Shown here in pieces: positions 23,618 to 55,850 of a DNA stretch of 64,000 bases. Location: positions 1-64,000 of the forward strand of contig JACYLN010000045.1 in the NCBI GenBank assembly GCA_015272515.1, written 5' to 3'. Made by a program: the position numbers and the translations under genes. The notes beneath the pieces were generated by a model. It was not told the origin of the DNA and searched no databases. It saw nothing but the letters and a program-made list of their open reading frames with translations. Position 1 is the stretch's first letter. Every line of letters starts with the position of its first letter. This stretch comes from Leptolyngbyaceae cyanobacterium C42_A2020_001. GTDB lineage: Bacteria; Cyanobacteriota; Cyanobacteriia; Leptolyngbyales; Leptolyngbyaceae.

Positions 23618-25240
23618 TTAAGATTTAGTTCCCAACCTGTACAAGTCAAACTCCTGAATTGAAGTCTCTCGGCGATAGCTCTGCTCTAGAGCCTGGTTAA
23701 GCCGATTGATGAAATTTTTGTTGTCATCTACTTGAGCCAAATCTTGGAAAGTTCGTGGCTTGATGATATAAGTCGGCTGTTTTTGAAGAATTCGCTCAAG
23801 CTCTTCTAGAGAATTAACACCTGTAATGTTGGGTAAATCAGGTCGAATTAACAAAAAAGGTGGAAACGCGTAGCGAGTAGGAATTTTGGCATCCACCAAA
23901 AAGTAAACAATTGGGGCGTTATCAACTACATAAATGTAGTCGTTCGGTTTAACATTTGGCTTCAAATATTCCGCAATCAGCGCAGGAGTATCCTGCCAGT
24001 GTTTAATTCCTTTGATATGGGTAAAATACGCGTATCGAACGTTGGTTTTGAATGTTCCAAATATACCTGCATTATCAAGGAGAATGATTAAAAGCGCAGC
24101 CAAGATTAAATATTGCCTAAATTCAGATTGTGCTTCTCTCCCTAAGTTAAAGAAAATCAAGCGAATTAAGACATAGGCTGTGATAAAGCAAAGAGCTGGA
24201 GAGAGTTGAAGAAAATAATGGATGTATAAATACCCTCTAAATACAGCACAAATGCCAAGTATAATGACAAAGAACCAAACTATAAAACCCGATATAACCC
24301 ATTTCTCTCGAAGTGATTTAGGCTTAGCAATAAAAAGGTAAATGGCCGCAGATGGAATAGAAAGCCAGAAGAATTTATTGGTTTGAACTTGATACGCGAT
24401 CGCTTGCACTAAGGGAGTAATTGAAAATTCAAGACCTACTGTTCGTAATTTATTAGCCGTAAAATTGGCGTAAACATAATCATCAAAGTGACCAATCAGC
24501 CAAAAATACAGCGAGACAATAATAAAAGGTAGAACAAATCCTAAGGAAATGAGAGAGCTAGCTTGAAGAATTGAACGATACTTTGTGCTCGATTCAATTC
24601 GCAGAATAAATACAGCTATCAAAATTAAAAACAAAGCAAGAAAGTCAAACAAAACAACATATTTAATCTCAAAACCAATCCCTAATAGAAAGCCAATTAG
24701 AAGCAACTTTAAATAATAACTAGAAGAAAGTTCTCGAACATCAAGAAATTTCGAGAAAAATAAATAGAAAGCAGCTACTACGAACATCGAGTAGAATATT
24801 TCTGTGTTTGCAGCAATTCCACCATTATTTAAAGTTGCAACTGCGTAGAAACCTCCTGCGAGTAGCCCAATTCCCTTACCGTTATGTTCTATCAAACCTC
24901 CGATTTTATAGAGAAAGAAACAGGTTGTTGCAACAAAAAAACAAGCCAGAATTCTAATTGATAAAACAGAATGGCCCAATATAGAAATAGCAGTCAAAAA
25001 GATTGCATAAATTCCTGGGGGTTTATTATCCCAAACAGTTGTGTATGGAGGATTGCCGTTTGACCAAGCTTTGGCAACTAAAAGATATAAACTTTCGTCC
25101 CAACTGATAACAGATTGATAGAAACTAGACCAGCGCAAGAAAACAACTAGAATAATAAAGAATATAAAAGCTAACCAGGGCTTTTTACTTAAGAAAACGT
25201 CTGCATTACGAACGCTTGATAACATTTTCTCTAAAACCAT
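23618..25240 (-). CDS. GT39-type (PMT/ArnT-like) membrane glycosyltransferase
   Basis: Polytopic protein of 540 residues with about 11-12 spans. After the first span comes YQSVISWDESLYLLVAKAW, whose Asp-Glu pair matches the catalytic loop of GT-C enzymes of the PMT_2 class, and then YTTVWDNKPPGIYA, another family hallmark. The C-terminal domain (YIYVVDNAPIVYFLVDAKIPTRYAFPP) is extracytoplasmic. It probably transfers a sugar from a polyprenyl-phosphate carrier to an envelope acceptor. Its DNA is visibly richer in A+T than both neighbours and has almost no HIP1 sites (one near 24400), which suggests a different origin. Confidence 0.82.
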   Translation of the reverse strand: MVLEKMLSSVRNADVFLSKKPWLAFIFFIILVVFLRWSSFYQSVISWDESLYLLVAKAWSNGNPPYTTVWDNKPPGIYAIFLTAISILGHSVLSIRILACFFVATTCFFLYKIGGLIEHNGKGIGLLAGGFYAVATLNNGGIAANTEIFYSMFVVAAFYLFFSKFLDVRELSSSYYLKLLLIGFLLGIGFEIKYVVLFDFLALFLILIAVFILRIESSTKYRSILQASSLISLGFVLPFIIVSLYFWLIGHFDDYVYANFTANKLRTVGLEFSITPLVQAIAYQVQTNKFFWLSIPSAAIYLFIAKPKSLREKWVISGFIVWFFVIILGICAVFRGYLYIHYFLQLSPALCFITAYVLIRLIFFNLGREAQSEFRQYLILAALLIILLDNAGIFGTFKTNVRYAYFTHIKGIKHWQDTPALIAEYLKPNVKPNDYIYVVDNAPIVYFLVDAKIPTRYAFPPFLLIRPDLPNITGVNSLEELERILQKQPTYIIKPRTFQDLAQVDDNKNFINRLNQALEQSYRRETSIQEFDLYRLGTKS

Positions 25241-48084: not shown

Positions 48085-48669
48085 TTATGCCAACTGCCAC
48101 TCACTGCTGGGTCGGCGTTGATAAATGCCGTTGTTACGCTGCATCATCTGGTAACCAATCAGCTCTCGACGCAGGGTGGCGCAGTCGGGGTGGTGACGTT
48201 TGATGATGTTGTTCAGCGTCGATTCAGGATAGGGGAGATTTGGGTCAAATTGGTTCACGAGCCACTTTAGAATTACCCAACGTTTCTTACGACTGGCAGG
48301 AATTTCTTTGATGCGATCGCCCTCCAAAAAGTTGCTCAACACCTTCGTTTCCCAGGCATCTTCTTCAACGCCGCTACTCAACGCCACCATTTGCTCAGGG
48401 GTCAAAATCGCTTTACTAAGAGTTTGAAGCGTATCGCTGCTGAGCTTGTAGAGATGGGTGTTGCCATCGGGACGCATTTGCACTAATTCCAATTCCTTCA
48501 GCTTTGCCAAATGATGAGAAATGGTCGGTTCTTTCAGGTTGAGCAGTACCGCCAGTTCTTCTACGCTGCACTCCTGCTGCGACAAAATCCCCAAAAGTTT
48601 GAGGCGGCTTTCGTTCGACAACGCCTTGAAAAACTGCAAGAGCGTGTTCAAATTTTCAGTTTGCATCAC
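48085..48669 (-). CDS. ArsR-family regulator with DUF2087 domain
   Basis: Protein of 194 residues. The N-terminal winged helix (LLQFFKALSNESRLKLLGILSQQECSVEELAVLLNLKEPTISHHLAKLKELELV) is ArsR type. The C-terminal DUF2087 domain (about 115-185, KKRWVILKWLVNQFDPNLPYPESTLNNIIKRHHPDCATLRRELIGYQMM) is a common fusion, role unknown. It has no metal-binding cysteines in the helix (only one Cys near residue 33), so it may not sense metal. A perfect 10-bp inverted repeat lies just ahead of the start and overlaps the stop of the amidase gene, consistent with autoregulation. Confidence 0.85.
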   Translation of the reverse strand: MMQTENLNTLLQFFKALSNESRLKLLGILSQQECSVEELAVLLNLKEPTISHHLAKLKELELVQMRPDGNTHLYKLSSDTLQTLSKAILTPEQMVALSSGVEEDAWETKVLSNFLEGDRIKEIPASRKKRWVILKWLVNQFDPNLPYPESTLNNIIKRHHPDCATLRRELIGYQMMQRNNGIYQRRPSSEWQLA

Positions 48670-50606: not shown

Positions 50607-53600
50607 TCAATTGTTTGCAACCTCTGCCCGCTGATACAGGCTGAAGTTGGACAGAGAGAACTCGGTACAGGCGGGATCCAATGGCTCAACGCTCACCGTT
50701 TGAATGCCTTTGGCTAAGAGCCAGCGAGGAGCCGCATCCAACGGTACGATTTGTTTGCCGTTGCGGGGGGTGAGTTGCATAACCGCCTCCGGGTCAGATC
50801 CGACTGAAGTGCTCTGCCAGCGAATCGCCAATTGACCTTTGGAACGTTTCTTACAAGCGAAGTCAAACACTAGCAGTCCTGTATCGCGACCGTTCACATT
50901 TAGAGCAGACACATCCAGTGTCAGGCGAGGATTTGCGCTTGTCACTTTGTAGCGATCGCCATTCACCGTTTCCACCCCATTCAATGCTGGCTTGGCATCC
51001 ACCTCACCAACCTTCCGCATTGTGGACTTTAACGAACCGAAGGAACGTCCCCACGAGCTAGGAACCCCATCGAGCTGAGGCAGTTCAAAAGCATAGTCTA
51101 AAAGCGTCATCCGCGTGGACGCATCAGCATCCAGCACCATCGGAATTAACGGAGCATCCACTGCTGGAATCGCATTTTGCAGTGCTTTCAAGCGTTGTAC
51201 GCGATCAGGCTGCACGAGCAGCAAAAATTGATCTACCGCAACGGGTACATAGTTTTCGACCACGTATCGGTAGATCAAGTGCGATCGCAATGCCACCTGA
51301 TTGCCGCTCAGTCGGCTGGCTGCATCCGCTGCAAACACCACAGGTGGAGGATTGGTTTGCAAACGCTGCACCGCCCGAAGTTGCTGATTTTTATGAATGA
51401 CGTTATAAACGGCTCCCGCTTGAATAGGCGGGGGATAGCCCAGATAGAAATATTGCGCGTTGCGATTGGTCAGGTCTAAGTAGGTTTCGCCCGGTTCCAA
51501 CACAGCATTCATTATGGCTTTGACTTTTTGCAGCCGCAAGAGATGGGCCGGGTCAGCCACCACCCCATCTAGCACTGGCAGCCCGATCGCGGCACCATTC
51601 ACCAGATTCAAACCAATAGGGTTCACTACGGCAACGGGTTGCTGCATGATGCGTTCAAAACTAGGTGGGGCTTCAAACCCGAACCCCAGCAGCCCTCCCA
51701 CAAGCGCAATGCCCAGTAAACTTACCGCTCTACCCCGCCGCTCAAAGGTAATCATCAGCACAATGGGCAGCAGCAGACAGATAATCCAGGCACTTGTTTG
51801 CCCCAGGCGCGACAATGAACCGGGGTCGATTCGTCCTGCGGCACGGGGAATTAGTAATACGGCAATCAGCAGCACCGGAACGGTAAACGCCAGAAAGCGC
51901 GATCGCTGCACCCGCTCTCGCTGCAACACCACCTGGTAGGTCAGCAAACCAAGCCCCACTGTGATCACAATCCAAGATGCCCGCACCAGTTCCCACAGGG
52001 AGTAGCTCAAGAAGGTTTGACTACCACGACTTTTGAACCATTCATAGCCGTAGGCAACGGAATTTAGTGATGACTGCTCCAAGCCATAGCGAATTGCCCC
52101 CAGCAACATCTGATCCAGCGGGGTAAAAACAATCAGAACCAGCGCCACCCCCACCACGACGATCGCCCCCCGCAGGAGATAACGCCGTTCCAGTCGTCGA
52201 GTTTGGTACAGCGCGATCGCTGTCAGCGGAAAAGTGGCGATGGTAAATAGTCCGCCATTACCCGGTGCAAACAAAATCAGCAGGGGACACAACGCCAACC
52301 AGGTAACCAGATACCGTACCCAATGCTGCACCACAAACGCATTGGCTAACAGGCAAAGCCCAGCAGTTACCAACAAATCGATCTCAAACAATCCCCCTGG
52401 GCTGGGCATCACTATTAATGCCAGGAAAGCGGGCAACAGCCCAATGGTGTTTGCCAAAATCGGCAGCGCGATCGCGAAATAGGGAACGGACAAAATCGGT
52501 TTACTTGCCACTGCAAGGTAGGATGCCGCATCTCCGCTAAAAAACAGGTTGGCAAATAGCCCTGGCACGTAATTCACTAAACCACGCGCGGGTTCATAAT
52601 CCTGAAAGGGTACATAGTGGAACGTTTGCCATAGCCACCACGGCAACAAAAACTCGCCCCAGTGGTAATCATCCGGATTCAAAAAATTGGCTCCCGCGAT
52701 CGGCATTTTGATGTAAAGCAGCAGCCCCACCAAGCACAACGGCGAGAGCACCAAGAAGAGATCCGTTGGCTGTTTAAAGTCCCGCTGACGACGCAAGCGT
52801 TTACCCCAGTCAAGGTAGCTGATCGCCATTAGAACGGCAATTAAGCCATACAAGGCAGGCGTGAAGCGATCGCCCCAAAACCTCCCCTGTTCGCCAATCC
52901 AGGGGGTTGGTAGCAAGGCGAAAAAATACAGCGGCAACCCAATTTGGGCAAGTCCCAGGCAAAAGCGCAGTTGTTTTTGTAACTCGAAATGGCTGACCGC
53001 GCGGAGCCAAAGGACGATCAACCCGGCGATCGCCACCCCCACCCCCACCCCAGCCGCAAGAATCACAGCCCCAATCTGAAACTGCCAGGCGAGGTTAAGG
53101 CGGCTGAGGGCAAGCATCAGCGCCACCCCATTAAACAATGCCAGTGGCACCAACAGAACACTTCCCCCCACACTGGCAACATAGTCTGCTTTGGAGCTAG
53201 TTTCCAGGCGTTTTACCAGTGCTGCCCCAGCAAATGCCAATACCAGCAACAGCAAAACGGTAGAAAAAAGAATCAGATCCAGAGTGGGATCGTTGCTTAA
53301 ACAGCTATAACTAATCCACAACCCAATGGGAATTAGCGCATAAAGTAAAAGCTGACGAAATGCTTCTTCCGCTACACTGCCATTGGTTTGCTCAATCGCG
53401 GCGGAGAGCAACCGCAACCCCGGATAGACCAGAAAAAACGCAACGAGAAAGCCAGCCAGAATCAGGTAATCGGGAGATTTGGAGCCGACTTCCCACGCCA
53501 GTTCACCCACAATAAGCTGGGGGTATTTTTGGGGAAATAACCCACTGTTAAGAGCCGCGATCGCCCGTCCTAAAAGCGTCGCCAGCACCAAGCTCACCAG

Positions 53601-53675
53601 CACGTGCTCCCATACCAGCAACGGAGGACGCAAAAGGGTTTGCAGTGGTCTCAACAGATTCAACAGGCACCTCAA
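50607..53675 (-). CDS. Large GT-C-like membrane protein (1022 aa)
   Basis: Polytopic protein of 1022 residues with perhaps 12-14 spans over the first 650 residues, then a soluble, probably periplasmic C-terminal half that ends in a beta-sandwich-like stretch (ALNVNGRDTGLLVFDFACKKRSKGQLAIRWQS). I find no exact family. The span-rich half with a large periplasmic loop (NPDDYHWGEFLLPWWLWQTFHYVPFQDYEPARG, where NPDDYHWGE carries acids next to a span) resembles GT-C glycosyltransferases, whose catalytic acid lies in such a loop. It is third in a minus-strand series with a GtrB-like GT2 and a flavoprotein. The start is uncertain (TTG at 53675). Confidence 0.6.
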   Translation of the reverse strand: MRCLLNLLRPLQTLLRPPLLVWEHVLVSLVLATLLGRAIAALNSGLFPQKYPQLIVGELAWEVGSKSPDYLILAGFLVAFFLVYPGLRLLSAAIEQTNGSVAEEAFRQLLLYALIPIGLWISYSCLSNDPTLDLILFSTVLLLLVLAFAGAALVKRLETSSKADYVASVGGSVLLVPLALFNGVALMLALSRLNLAWQFQIGAVILAAGVGVGVAIAGLIVLWLRAVSHFELQKQLRFCLGLAQIGLPLYFFALLPTPWIGEQGRFWGDRFTPALYGLIAVLMAISYLDWGKRLRRQRDFKQPTDLFLVLSPLCLVGLLLYIKMPIAGANFLNPDDYHWGEFLLPWWLWQTFHYVPFQDYEPARGLVNYVPGLFANLFFSGDAASYLAVASKPILSVPYFAIALPILANTIGLLPAFLALIVMPSPGGLFEIDLLVTAGLCLLANAFVVQHWVRYLVTWLALCPLLILFAPGNGGLFTIATFPLTAIALYQTRRLERRYLLRGAIVVVGVALVLIVFTPLDQMLLGAIRYGLEQSSLNSVAYGYEWFKSRGSQTFLSYSLWELVRASWIVITVGLGLLTYQVVLQRERVQRSRFLAFTVPVLLIAVLLIPRAAGRIDPGSLSRLGQTSAWIICLLLPIVLMITFERRGRAVSLLGIALVGGLLGFGFEAPPSFERIMQQPVAVVNPIGLNLVNGAAIGLPVLDGVVADPAHLLRLQKVKAIMNAVLEPGETYLDLTNRNAQYFYLGYPPPIQAGAVYNVIHKNQQLRAVQRLQTNPPPVVFAADAASRLSGNQVALRSHLIYRYVVENYVPVAVDQFLLLVQPDRVQRLKALQNAIPAVDAPLIPMVLDADASTRMTLLDYAFELPQLDGVPSSWGRSFGSLKSTMRKVGEVDAKPALNGVETVNGDRYKVTSANPRLTLDVSALNVNGRDTGLLVFDFACKKRSKGQLAIRWQSTSVGSDPEAVMQLTPRNGKQIVPLDAAPRWLLAKGIQTVSVEPLDPACTEFSLSNFSLYQRAEVANN

Positions 53676-53732
53676 TTCGAGTCATCGCTTGCCAACTAGA
53701 CATCGAATCTTAACATTCAATGCTCTGTTTTC

Positions 53733-54731
53733 TTAGTCTTTGGGTCGCGTCACGTTAATATCCTGCTTACGGAGTAATACCAAGCTGCGGCTCTCGCGGG
53801 TCACCAGGTAAAAGGGACGATTTTGATTGGTGATCACCAACCGCGCCACGTATTCCGATAAAACTGCCAGAATCATAAACAGAATGAAAAACATCACCGA
53901 ATTTTGCAACGAGAGGGTAGTCCACCCTTCGGCAACGGTGGATTTAAACACATTCACCAGCACTACATAAATGCTGTAAAGCACGTTGAGAAACGCACCT
54001 GCCAGCGCCGTAAAGGTGAGCAATCGCAGCGGGTAATGGGACGACAGAAAAAATAGCCGAAAGGCGCGAGAAATGGCAGCAGAGTAACTCTGATTCACAG
54101 GTTGCCCAGTGCGGTTGAGCCGCTCGTAATTGAAAGTGCGGTAACGCAAGCCCGAAAACGCCCCAATTACGGGAAACAGGCTGTAGCGATCGCTATTGTC
54201 TAAAAACGAGTTGATGGCGCGGCGAGTGTAGAGGCGCAGGGTAGAGGCGGCGATCGGCAGATTTTCTTTGGTCACAAACCGATAAAGCTGAAAGAAAACA
54301 CGGCTCAAGCCGTTGTATAGGCTAAACGACCGTTGCAGGCGATCACTACGTAAGCCATACACCATGTCCACACCGCTGCAGCTGAGATGCACCATTTCCG
54401 GGATTGGGTCAACCGGGTCAAAGGCAGCATCCAGTGTTACCACCACATCCCCGATCGCCTGCTCCAGCCCCACAACAAAGGCACTCTCGTGGGGAATAGG
54501 CCGTGCCAGCGAATAGAGTTGAATGTTGCGAAGCTCTTGCTGCAAACGCTCCACCACTTCCACCGTGCCATCCGTTGAGGCATTATCAACCAGTACAATC
54601 TCAAAATCTTTGTATTCATTCACCAGCAACGCCGACACTTGCTGCAAATAAGTTGCGATCCAGCTTTCCGCATTTCTAATCGGCGAAATTACAGAAACCA
54701 ACACATCCGATCGCTGGTTAGCAAAACTCAT
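53733..54731 (-). CDS. GtrB/DPM1-like GT2 glycosyltransferase with membrane anchor
   Basis: Protein of 332 residues. The cytoplasmic GT2 domain starts VSVISPIRNAESWIATYLQQV; FEIVLVDNASTDGTVE and VVTLDAAFDPVDPI hold the metal and nucleotide sites. Two C-terminal spans (ALAGAFLNVLYSIYVVLVNVF, LSLQNSVMFFILFMILAVLSEYVARLV) are followed by NRPFYLVTRES, the layout of GtrB and polyprenol-phosphate sugar synthases. It probably makes polyprenyl-phosphate-sugar. The gene starts 12 bp after the flavoprotein gene and is followed by the large GT-C-like gene, so the three form an operon. Confidence 0.82.
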   Translation of the reverse strand: MSFANQRSDVLVSVISPIRNAESWIATYLQQVSALLVNEYKDFEIVLVDNASTDGTVEVVERLQQELRNIQLYSLARPIPHESAFVVGLEQAIGDVVVTLDAAFDPVDPIPEMVHLSCSGVDMVYGLRSDRLQRSFSLYNGLSRVFFQLYRFVTKENLPIAASTLRLYTRRAINSFLDNSDRYSLFPVIGAFSGLRYRTFNYERLNRTGQPVNQSYSAAISRAFRLFFLSSHYPLRLLTFTALAGAFLNVLYSIYVVLVNVFKSTVAEGWTTLSLQNSVMFFILFMILAVLSEYVARLVITNQNRPFYLVTRESRSLVLLRKQDINVTRPKD

Positions 54732-54743
54732 CCAACAAACTCC

Positions 54744-55850
54744 TCACGCAGCACTCAAGTATTGATCAACCGCTTCCAGCGCGTCATAAATGTTATCAAT
54801 TTTAGACCCAAGCAGCGAGACAATCCGAGACTGAGCAGGATCCACTTCAAACAAAATGGGTCGCCCATCGTCGTTTTCATTTTTTACCAGTACGGTTTTT
54901 AGCTCAAACAGCGAATCGCGATAAACCATGTTTGCCAAACAGGGAATGTACCGCTGGGCATCTCGTACCATGAACCCAAAATTAGAGCGTTTTTCCAAAC
55001 TTTCCAGCGTTATATAGGGGTTGGGGTTGGGTGGTGCTGCTTCTGTCCAGGCAGATTGGGGCGTATAGCGGACGTGGGAGAACGTGGACAATCCCCGGTT
55101 GGGAAAGGGCATGAACGAGAAGAAGGGACCATCCATGACGGTAACAGAGACCTCCCGCAGTTCATCGGGAAGCTGCACCAGCGGCATTTCAGCAATTTCG
55201 TGCTTCAACCTGAGCCGACTGGGAGCAATCCCGGCGATCGCGTTTAAGCCAGAATAGGTGCAGTTAAATACGTAATCAACGCCCGCCCCGTTGCCGTTGC
55301 TATCCACGACCGTCAGCGGATTTACCGTCCCCACTTCTACCGCTGCGATCGCCGTTGCTAATTTCACCGTCACCCCTGCCTGGGCTAACCGTTCTCGTAA
55401 CAACCGCCGTAACACCGCTGCATCAAAGGCGTATTCCTGGGTTTCGTAAACGCTGCTAATTAAGCGAGGAGAGAATAGATCTAAAAAACACGACCGAGCC
55501 GGACGAATTGGCGCTTCGATGTTGTGACAGAACACTTCAAACTGACGCGGGCTGACTTTTGACCCGACTCGCGCGATCGCGTACAGCTTAACAAACTCCG
55601 TTACAATCGCCGGACGAAATTCATGCAGAAACCGCTGGAAATTGAGCCGACTGCGATACGCCGTACTAAAGCTGCGTGGGTAGTGGTAGCCGTTATGCAG
55701 CCGGGCTTGATTGTGGTACGAGGCGCGAGTCAGTAAATCGGGCGATCGCTCAAACAACACCACGTCTGCCCCCTGCTGTGCCAGGTGAATGGCAACGCTA
55801 CAGCCATAAAACCCCCCTCCAATCACCGCGACCCTAGAATCCATCCGCAC
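54744..55850 (-). CDS. FAD-dependent oxidoreductase (DAO family)
   Basis: Protein of 368 residues. The N-terminal FAD motif is VAVIGGGFYGCSVAIHLAQQGADVVLFERSP; the middle has YHNQARLHNGYHYPRSFSTAYRSR, a segment typical of sugar- or amine-acting DAO-type flavoproteins; the end (DPAQSRIVSLLGSKIDNIYDALEAVDQYL) carries the second FAD contact. Substrate unknown. The GTG at 55850 has GAGGA 6 bp ahead; the ATG at 55844 is an alternative. First gene of a three-gene minus-strand operon whose other members act on lipid-linked sugars, so a sugar or sugar-amine substrate is possible. Confidence 0.8.
   Translation of the reverse strand: MRMDSRVAVIGGGFYGCSVAIHLAQQGADVVLFERSPDLLTRASYHNQARLHNGYHYPRSFSTAYRSRLNFQRFLHEFRPAIVTEFVKLYAIARVGSKVSPRQFEVFCHNIEAPIRPARSCFLDLFSPRLISSVYETQEYAFDAAVLRRLLRERLAQAGVTVKLATAIAAVEVGTVNPLTVVDSNGNGAGVDYVFNCTYSGLNAIAGIAPSRLRLKHEIAEMPLVQLPDELREVSVTVMDGPFFSFMPFPNRGLSTFSHVRYTPQSAWTEAAPPNPNPYITLESLEKRSNFGFMVRDAQRYIPCLANMVYRDSLFELKTVLVKNENDDGRPILFEVDPAQSRIVSLLGSKIDNIYDALEAVDQYLSAA

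Follow-up and report, generated by a model that had tools for sequence, protein, structure and literature searches.

A DAO-fold flavoprotein gene block in a Leptolyngbyaceae cyanobacterium may be one half of a mobile six-part glycan-decoration cassette

The window analysed here is a 64,000-nucleotide stretch of the genome of Leptolyngbyaceae cyanobacterium C42_A2020_001 (assembly GCA_015272515.1, contig JACYLN010000045.1, positions 1 to 64,000), the genome referred to below as G000. It contains a block of three minus-strand genes encoding a DAO-fold flavoprotein of 368 amino acids (first gene of the block, 54744-55850; Pfam DAO, E = 2.9e-22), a family 2 glycosyltransferase of 332 amino acids with two C-terminal membrane spans (GT2B, 53733-54731; Pfam Glycos_transf_2, E = 2.8e-19) and a polytopic protein of 1022 amino acids (50607-53675), which may be a GT-C-like transferase. 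The open reading frame (ORF) coordinates agree with the original prediction, made from the letters of the window alone, of three minus-strand genes separated by gaps of 12 bp (flavoprotein to GT2B) and 57 bp (GT2B to the large protein). A second block, encoding a short-chain dehydrogenase/reductase (SDR), a ketose-epimerase-like TIM barrel and a DPM1-like GT2 protein named GT2A, was found to accompany these genes. We put at about even odds (a probability of roughly 0.5) that the window block makes up the second half of a cassette of six parts, which would load a sugar onto a lipid, remodel it and transfer it to an acceptor in the envelope. The best reading of the whole is a Gtr-type decoration system in which oxidation by the flavoprotein, epimerisation by the TIM barrel and reduction by the SDR would remodel a polyprenyl-phosphate (or pre-lipid) sugar.

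The flavoprotein, GT2A, the TIM barrel, the SDR and the large protein were searched for in each of the 42 family genomes, and GT2B in 35 of them. The SDR and the TIM barrel were matched in exactly seven genomes (G000, G001, G002, G003, G015, G019 and G027), and a close GT2A (75-100% identity) was present in those same seven, 31 more genomes giving weak GT2 matches alone. The full-length flavoprotein was found in six of the seven and in no other family genome. Close GT2B orthologs occurred in the same six genomes as the flavoprotein; the GT2B search was otherwise unspecific, with matches in 58/58 genomes and only these six as close orthologs. The large protein was found in six of the seven genomes (not in G019), and it is in pieces in G001 and G015. 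In G015 its gene is interrupted after about residue 84 by an insert of about 1.1 kb (L032:8942-10117) with two transposase-like ORFs, presumably of IS630 type.

In G000 the SDR, TIM barrel and GT2A genes lie on a separate contig (C121:8021-10421), and in G027 and G003 the SDR, TIM barrel, GT2A, flavoprotein and GT2B genes follow one another in this order in one operon. The flavoprotein gene sits beside the SDR-TIM-GT2A block in G015 and G019, where GT2B is elsewhere. Since the flavoprotein and GT2B genes are adjacent in four of the six family genomes that have both, their pairing is above chance; the large protein gene adjoins GT2B in G000, G027 and G015. Genera g17 and g18 each include one genome with the set and one without it (the g18 genome without it is 85% complete), which suggests that the cassette is gained or lost as a unit. 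Outside the family, the cyanobacterial genome G172 carries the set and so does G167, in which a contig end cuts GT2B. When the flavoprotein was searched for across the phylum, 36 of 292 genomes matched at E<=0.001, near full length only in G000, G167 and G172 and by short or weak matches in the others.

Among plasmid records, 13 matched the flavoprotein, and GT2A was found at E<=1e-30 in ten, which were the ten plasmids with the best flavoprotein matches (at least 39% identity). Ten of the 13 plasmids were read, that is, all except Cereibacter H7, Mesorhizobium H13 and Agrobacterium H14. All five proteins were found together on each of the nine GT2A plasmids read (Azospirillum, Sagittula, Sphingomonas, Roseobacter, two Cereibacter, Ruegeria, Rhodobacter and Psychrobacter), and the Mesorhizobium H12 plasmid has the flavoprotein, SDR and TIM barrel without GT2A and GT2B. 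A GtrA or SMR gene lies inside eight of the nine cassettes, the exception being that of Azospirillum (seven are confirmed by Pfam and the eighth, L241, is known from annotation), and most of the cassettes end with a polytopic protein or domain. Some of the genes are fused: GT2B and GT2A form a single ORF in Psychrobacter, and GT2A is joined to the polytopic part in two Cereibacter and in Rhodobacter. In the Psychrobacter plasmid pA22P4 (L149, 10.8 kb) the whole cassette is the annotated cargo besides replication and mobilisation genes. A 4 kb human-faecal contig carries SDR, TIM barrel, GT2A and flavoprotein in this order. In public records the cassette proteins carry no annotation more specific than 'FAD-dependent oxidoreductase', 'TIM barrel protein', 'glycosyltransferase' or 'hypothetical protein'.

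It is scarcely credible that an amino-acid oxidase-like gene simply happens to neighbour glycan genes in the window. Such a coincidental grouping would fit the distance between the flavoprotein and GT2B genes in G015 and their separate contigs in G019, but in both genomes the flavoprotein, where apart from GT2B, sits with SDR-TIM-GT2A instead, and the identical linkage recurs on plasmids of another phylum. The explanation was rejected as contradicted by these linkage data. The original prediction that the window genes travel together is upheld, both by the adjacency in four of six family genomes and by the plasmids. Its three-part set was too small, as the SDR, the TIM barrel and GT2A also belong; its idea of a glycan-decoration system with a DAO-type flavoprotein survives as the best reading of linked genes, with the correction that the set is larger and that the supposed GtrB is without catalytic residues.

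Of 161 viral relatives of the flavoprotein 80 were covered; among these 80 contigs, 75 had the flavoprotein alone, four had it with the SDR and TIM barrel and one (L151) had all five proteins. When viral contigs were scanned with the large protein and GT2A no homolog was confirmed, though L151, which was found through the flavoprotein, does have GT2A. Besides all five core genes, L151 (IMGVR_UViG_2903814385_000001), listed as viral, has a repressor-like ORF and, on the opposite strand, a PMT_2-like gene; it is possibly a serotype-converting element. Ten viral flavoprotein relatives were scanned, chosen for their long N-terminal part, and in seven of these ten (L155, L156, L168, L178, L180, L184 and L203) a Gfo/Idh NAD-binding domain was found at the N-terminus, so that the flavoprotein is again paired with a nicotinamide enzyme. 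The neighbourhood of L155, the one viral Gfo/Idh-flavoprotein locus read, contains many sugar-modifying genes.

The two GT2 proteins appear to have divided the functions of a polyprenyl-phosphate glycosyltransferase. The original prediction had ascribed a GtrB layout to GT2B, and this stands for the GT2 domain and the two spans (at residues 241 and 278 by hydropathy), but not for the DxD motif and the catalytic acid. Among PDB sequences GT2B matches GtrB sll0501 (phmmer, E = 1.1e-20). In alignment with it the metal site D94/D96 becomes DAA instead of DAD (residues 101-103, 54423-54431 on the minus strand), the second Asp being Ala103 and the Gln deleted. The DxDLQ motif was present in none of 12 cassette GT2B proteins and in all of 23 ordinary paralogs (23 of the 24 loci L007-L030, L015 being cut short and omitted). 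The catalytic acid D157 corresponds to Thr164 in the window protein, and no Asp was found at that column in any of the 12 members. The arginines R122, R125, R200 and R290 of GtrB are kept as Arg128, Arg131, Arg207 and Arg297. For GtrB, activity is reported to be lost when any one of nine juxtamembrane residues, among them the four arginines, is mutated, with R122 and R200 as the proposed ligands of the lipid phosphate (PMC4728340); the window GT2B keeps five of the nine positions (the four arginines and A216). The best reading of these sequence comparisons is that GT2B is a pseudo-GtrB, a probably inactive relative of GtrB which has retained the lipid-phosphate arginines.

GT2A is DPMS-like (match to 5mlz, E = 2.7e-11) and without a C-terminal membrane domain, a single weak span being called at residue 162 of the G000 copy. 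It is the best-conserved cassette protein by pairwise comparison and reads DGN[NG]KD in 11/11 members where ordinary paralogs read D[AG]DLQ. In the PHROGs database both GT2 proteins are called 'GtrB-like' with no system name. The opposite assignment, in which GT2B is active as a metal-independent polyprenyl-phosphate glycosyltransferase of unusual site and the addition of a second sugar, or a later step, falls to GT2A, seems quite improbable. It would account for the persistence of the first motif Asp (D101) and the acceptor arginines both in the window protein and in three close orthologs, and for the match of GT2B to the GtrB PHROG (E = 4.4e-41). It is opposed by the loss of the second Asp, the Gln and the catalytic acid, by the loss of the first Asp as well in G172 and in six of the seven non-cyanobacterial members, and by the conservation of GT2A, not GT2B, as the highest of the set.

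The three enzymes that would act on the sugar belong to recognisable families. The flavoprotein, which in alignment A2 is 33-82% identical to 15 relatives, adopts the DAO fold along its full length in an AlphaFold model (pLDDT 92.3) and contains GxGxxG. The best VIA row for this model is GlpD (Z 31.3, root-mean-square deviation 2.9, 343 residues aligned), and by profile the closest solved relative is a glycerophosphate oxidase (E = 2e-9). It thus resembles GlpD/GlpO in fold over the whole length and in its best profile match, and differs from them in having only 13-15% identity and an invariant NQxRxHxGxHYPR stretch of its own family. The TIM barrel is by profile closest to ketose 3-epimerases (E = 8e-16) and has the residues E149/D183/H209/E244 (Glu-Asp-His-Glu), which we take to be metal ligands, in 11/11 members. 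It shares the profile match and this tetrad with D-psicose, D-tagatose and L-ribulose 3-epimerases, and is unlike them in being linked to the flavoprotein and the SDR. Ketose 3-epimerases act next to a carbonyl. The SDR is RmlD-like and contains GxxGxxG.

In the pathway that we propose, GT2A, encoded elsewhere in the window genome, would charge polyprenyl phosphate with a sugar, with GT2B as its membrane platform and lipid-binding partner. The flavoprotein would then oxidise one sugar hydroxyl to a ketone, the TIM barrel would invert the carbon adjacent to the ketone and the SDR would reduce the ketone to give an unusual sugar. The lipid-linked sugar would then be exposed by a flippase, which in the proteobacteria may be the GtrA or SMR protein, and be passed on by the polytopic protein to a glycan or protein of the envelope. 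We infer that remodelling takes place on the lipid and does not precede loading. A tenable second choice, somewhat less probable, is that the flavoprotein, TIM barrel and SDR make a free, phosphorylated or nucleotide-linked sugar which GT2A and GT2B load onto the lipid before the polytopic protein transfers it. Consistent with this order, no membrane span was predicted in the flavoprotein, TIM barrel or SDR of the window genome, and their closest solved relatives include ketose epimerases and glycerophosphate oxidase, enzymes that use small free or phosphorylated substrates. However, the annotation of the plasmid cassettes shows neither a nucleotidyltransferase nor a sugar kinase among the core genes, and in the one characterised parallel epimerisation is expected by its authors to follow lipid loading (PMC11127046).

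The large protein, predicted as a long polytopic protein with a soluble C-terminal domain, has indeed 16 spans by hydropathy and a soluble C-terminal third (50610-51668 on the minus strand), no span being predicted beyond residue 669. No match was found in Pfam or NCBIfam at E<=1 or among PDB sequences at E<=10. The predicted GT-C fold could not be demonstrated: the AlphaFold model, built from 2 sequences, has a pLDDT of 37, with blocks above 60 in the C-terminal part alone, and the family profile (17 of 21 rows used in hhalign) matched 25 PMT_2 proteins weakly (E = 0.0018, probability 15%), compared with 0.52 for a DUF2142 control and 0.37 for a permease control. The last 130 or so residues appear to be beta-rich and similar to a carbohydrate-binding module. 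Relatives outside the family are proteins of about 700-840 residues in family f43 of another class of the phylum (hhalign E = 3e-33 over residues 244-1017). The same profile matched the polytopic proteins of the cassette genomes G172, G003 and G167 at E = 5.8e-6 over 345 columns, the Sagittula-Sphingomonas polytopic pair at 0.0069 and the other five proteobacterial polytopic proteins at 0.65. Single Pfam scans of the cassette polytopic proteins gave at best a sub-threshold PMT_2 match, in L151. Five of these proteins taken jointly (Psychrobacter, Roseobacter, L151, Cereibacter and Rhodobacter) did match the PMT_2 profile (hhalign E = 8.5e-7, 376 columns), and those of Sagittula and Sphingomonas did not (hhalign E = 0.28).

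GT-C glycosyltransferases have an acidic motif in the first outer loop. A candidate catalytic loop of the large protein is DDYHWGE (residues 335-341, 52653-52673 on the minus strand), which is identical in the five close orthologs read. Among distant relatives DDHHFGE or DDHHYGE was found in 4 of 16 rows (two of these, m1 and L037, being apparently one protein), the other 12 being off-pattern. DDYHWGEFLLP resembles the Sagittula stretch DDPFHFGEFLAP, in which the motif is DDPFHFGE. The PMT_2 alignment begins past DDYHWGE, so that the motifs of the two are not aligned. It is unlikely, in our judgement, that the 1022-residue protein is instead an exporter or scaffold, with sugar transfer left to a different polytopic protein of the genome. 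Its lack of a family match, the modest PMT_2 value and the presence of the five-protein core without it in G019 agree with such a role, as does a second, unrelated polytopic gene of about 790 codons, conserved directly upstream of the SDR gene in G000, G002 and G015 (L135:5632-8010, L136:3841-6240 and L142:8636-10924). This gene, whose G000 copy has no Pfam match, is a candidate for a further transferase. Set against an exporter or scaffold are the position of the large protein gene beside GT2B in G000, G027 and G015, where proteobacterial cassettes carry their polytopic protein, the profile match to the polytopic proteins of G172, G003 and G167, and the DDYHWGE motif. In G002 a membrane protein with a Pfam DUF2142 match (L031:8876-10291) lies beside the large protein, and a look-alike is found in G001 (L141:6624-8036).

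Several observations weigh against the proposed pathway. Only co-occurrence, gene order, fusions, families and lost or kept residues were observed, and from these we infer all reactions, their order, the sugar and the acceptor. The fold of the flavoprotein does not tell alcohol oxidases and amine oxidases apart: among the rows that come within 2 Z of the best match are those of glycine oxidase and opine dehydrogenase, and Foldseek puts these two first. The SDR does not have the YxxxK of extended SDRs, reading YxxxR in nine of ten rows by pattern and YGLHR in the tenth by eye. GT2A as the lipid-charging enzyme is a proposal, given that its motif in all 11 members is the off-type DGN[NG]K and not DxDLQ (the orphan G358 copy reads DGNNQD). 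The window GT2B changes four of the nine essential GtrB positions (K132, A136, Y140 and L212), and R200 is kept in only 4 of 12 members, in an alignment that is loose for the distant ones. No flippase was found by the cyanobacterial cassettes, with no GtrA near any of them and none anywhere in G027. The set is also not always whole: in G358 and G417 the stretch read has GT2A and none of its four partners, G019 has the five proteins without a homolog of the 1022-residue protein, and G001 (84% complete) is without the flavoprotein and GT2B.

Two other genes of the window may be mentioned. An ArsR/DUF2087 gene (48085-48669, minus strand; Pfam), two genes past the block, encodes a possible regulator which is not claimed as part of the cassette; a look-alike was seen by eye beside the SDR end in G003 (L035:9269-9856). 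A PMT_2-type gene lies elsewhere in the window (23618-25240, minus strand; family match at 24524-25024).

The cassette resembles GtrA/GtrB/Gtr serotype conversion in its two-span GT2 protein, the GtrA of the plasmid forms, its variable polytopic protein and its mobility (PMC4728340). Unlike GtrB sll0501 (PMC4728340), GT2B is without the DxD and D157, and catalysis has probably shifted to GT2A, which has no GtrB-type membrane domain; in human DPMS the membrane parts are likewise on separate chains. In mycobacteria the oxidase DprE1 and the reductase DprE2 epimerise a polyprenyl-phosphate sugar (arabinose) for GT-C enzymes, and an SMR-family flippase has been proposed (PMC11127046). The cassette may share this oxidase-reductase logic by analogy, and differs in its DAO/GlpD-fold flavoprotein and in the added metal TIM-barrel epimerase-like protein. 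Also comparable are the three-component periplasmic pentofuranose systems of Citrobacter youngae O1/O2, which have auxiliary epimerases, MATE or SMR flippases and GT-C transferases (PMC11127046). Common to these and the cassette would be a lipid-linked donor, a flippase, a GT-C protein and an optional SDR or DprE1/E2-type epimerase expected to act after loading. The C. youngae systems use the donor PRPP and the synthase PPPRS (PMC11127046), whereas the cassette has GT2-type proteins, one of them without catalytic residues, and the combination of DAO flavoprotein, TIM barrel and SDR.

Searches of open-licence papers for the gene combination found no paper describing the cassette. We conclude that the pathway is real and mobile and, as far as these searches reach, undescribed. 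The fuller claim, that it is a mobile on-lipid remodelling pathway built on a dead GtrB platform and a DPM1-like transferase whose metal site is altered (DGNxK), with a product sugar undescribed in these bacteria, is made tentatively and seems rather doubtful as a whole. Kelly et al. (2024) state that no other epimerase enzymes are known to them from systems of O-antigen side-chain glycosylation (PMC11127046), and the cassette, if correctly read, would be a further and chemically different case. It is spread over cyanobacteria, alphaproteobacterial plasmids, a Psychrobacter plasmid and a human-faecal contig. If the proposed pathway is true, it would provide a bacterial parallel of a polyprenyl-phosphate sugar synthase whose catalytic and membrane parts lie on different chains, and it predicts an unusual surface sugar in the organisms that carry the cassette and supplies gene markers for that sugar.

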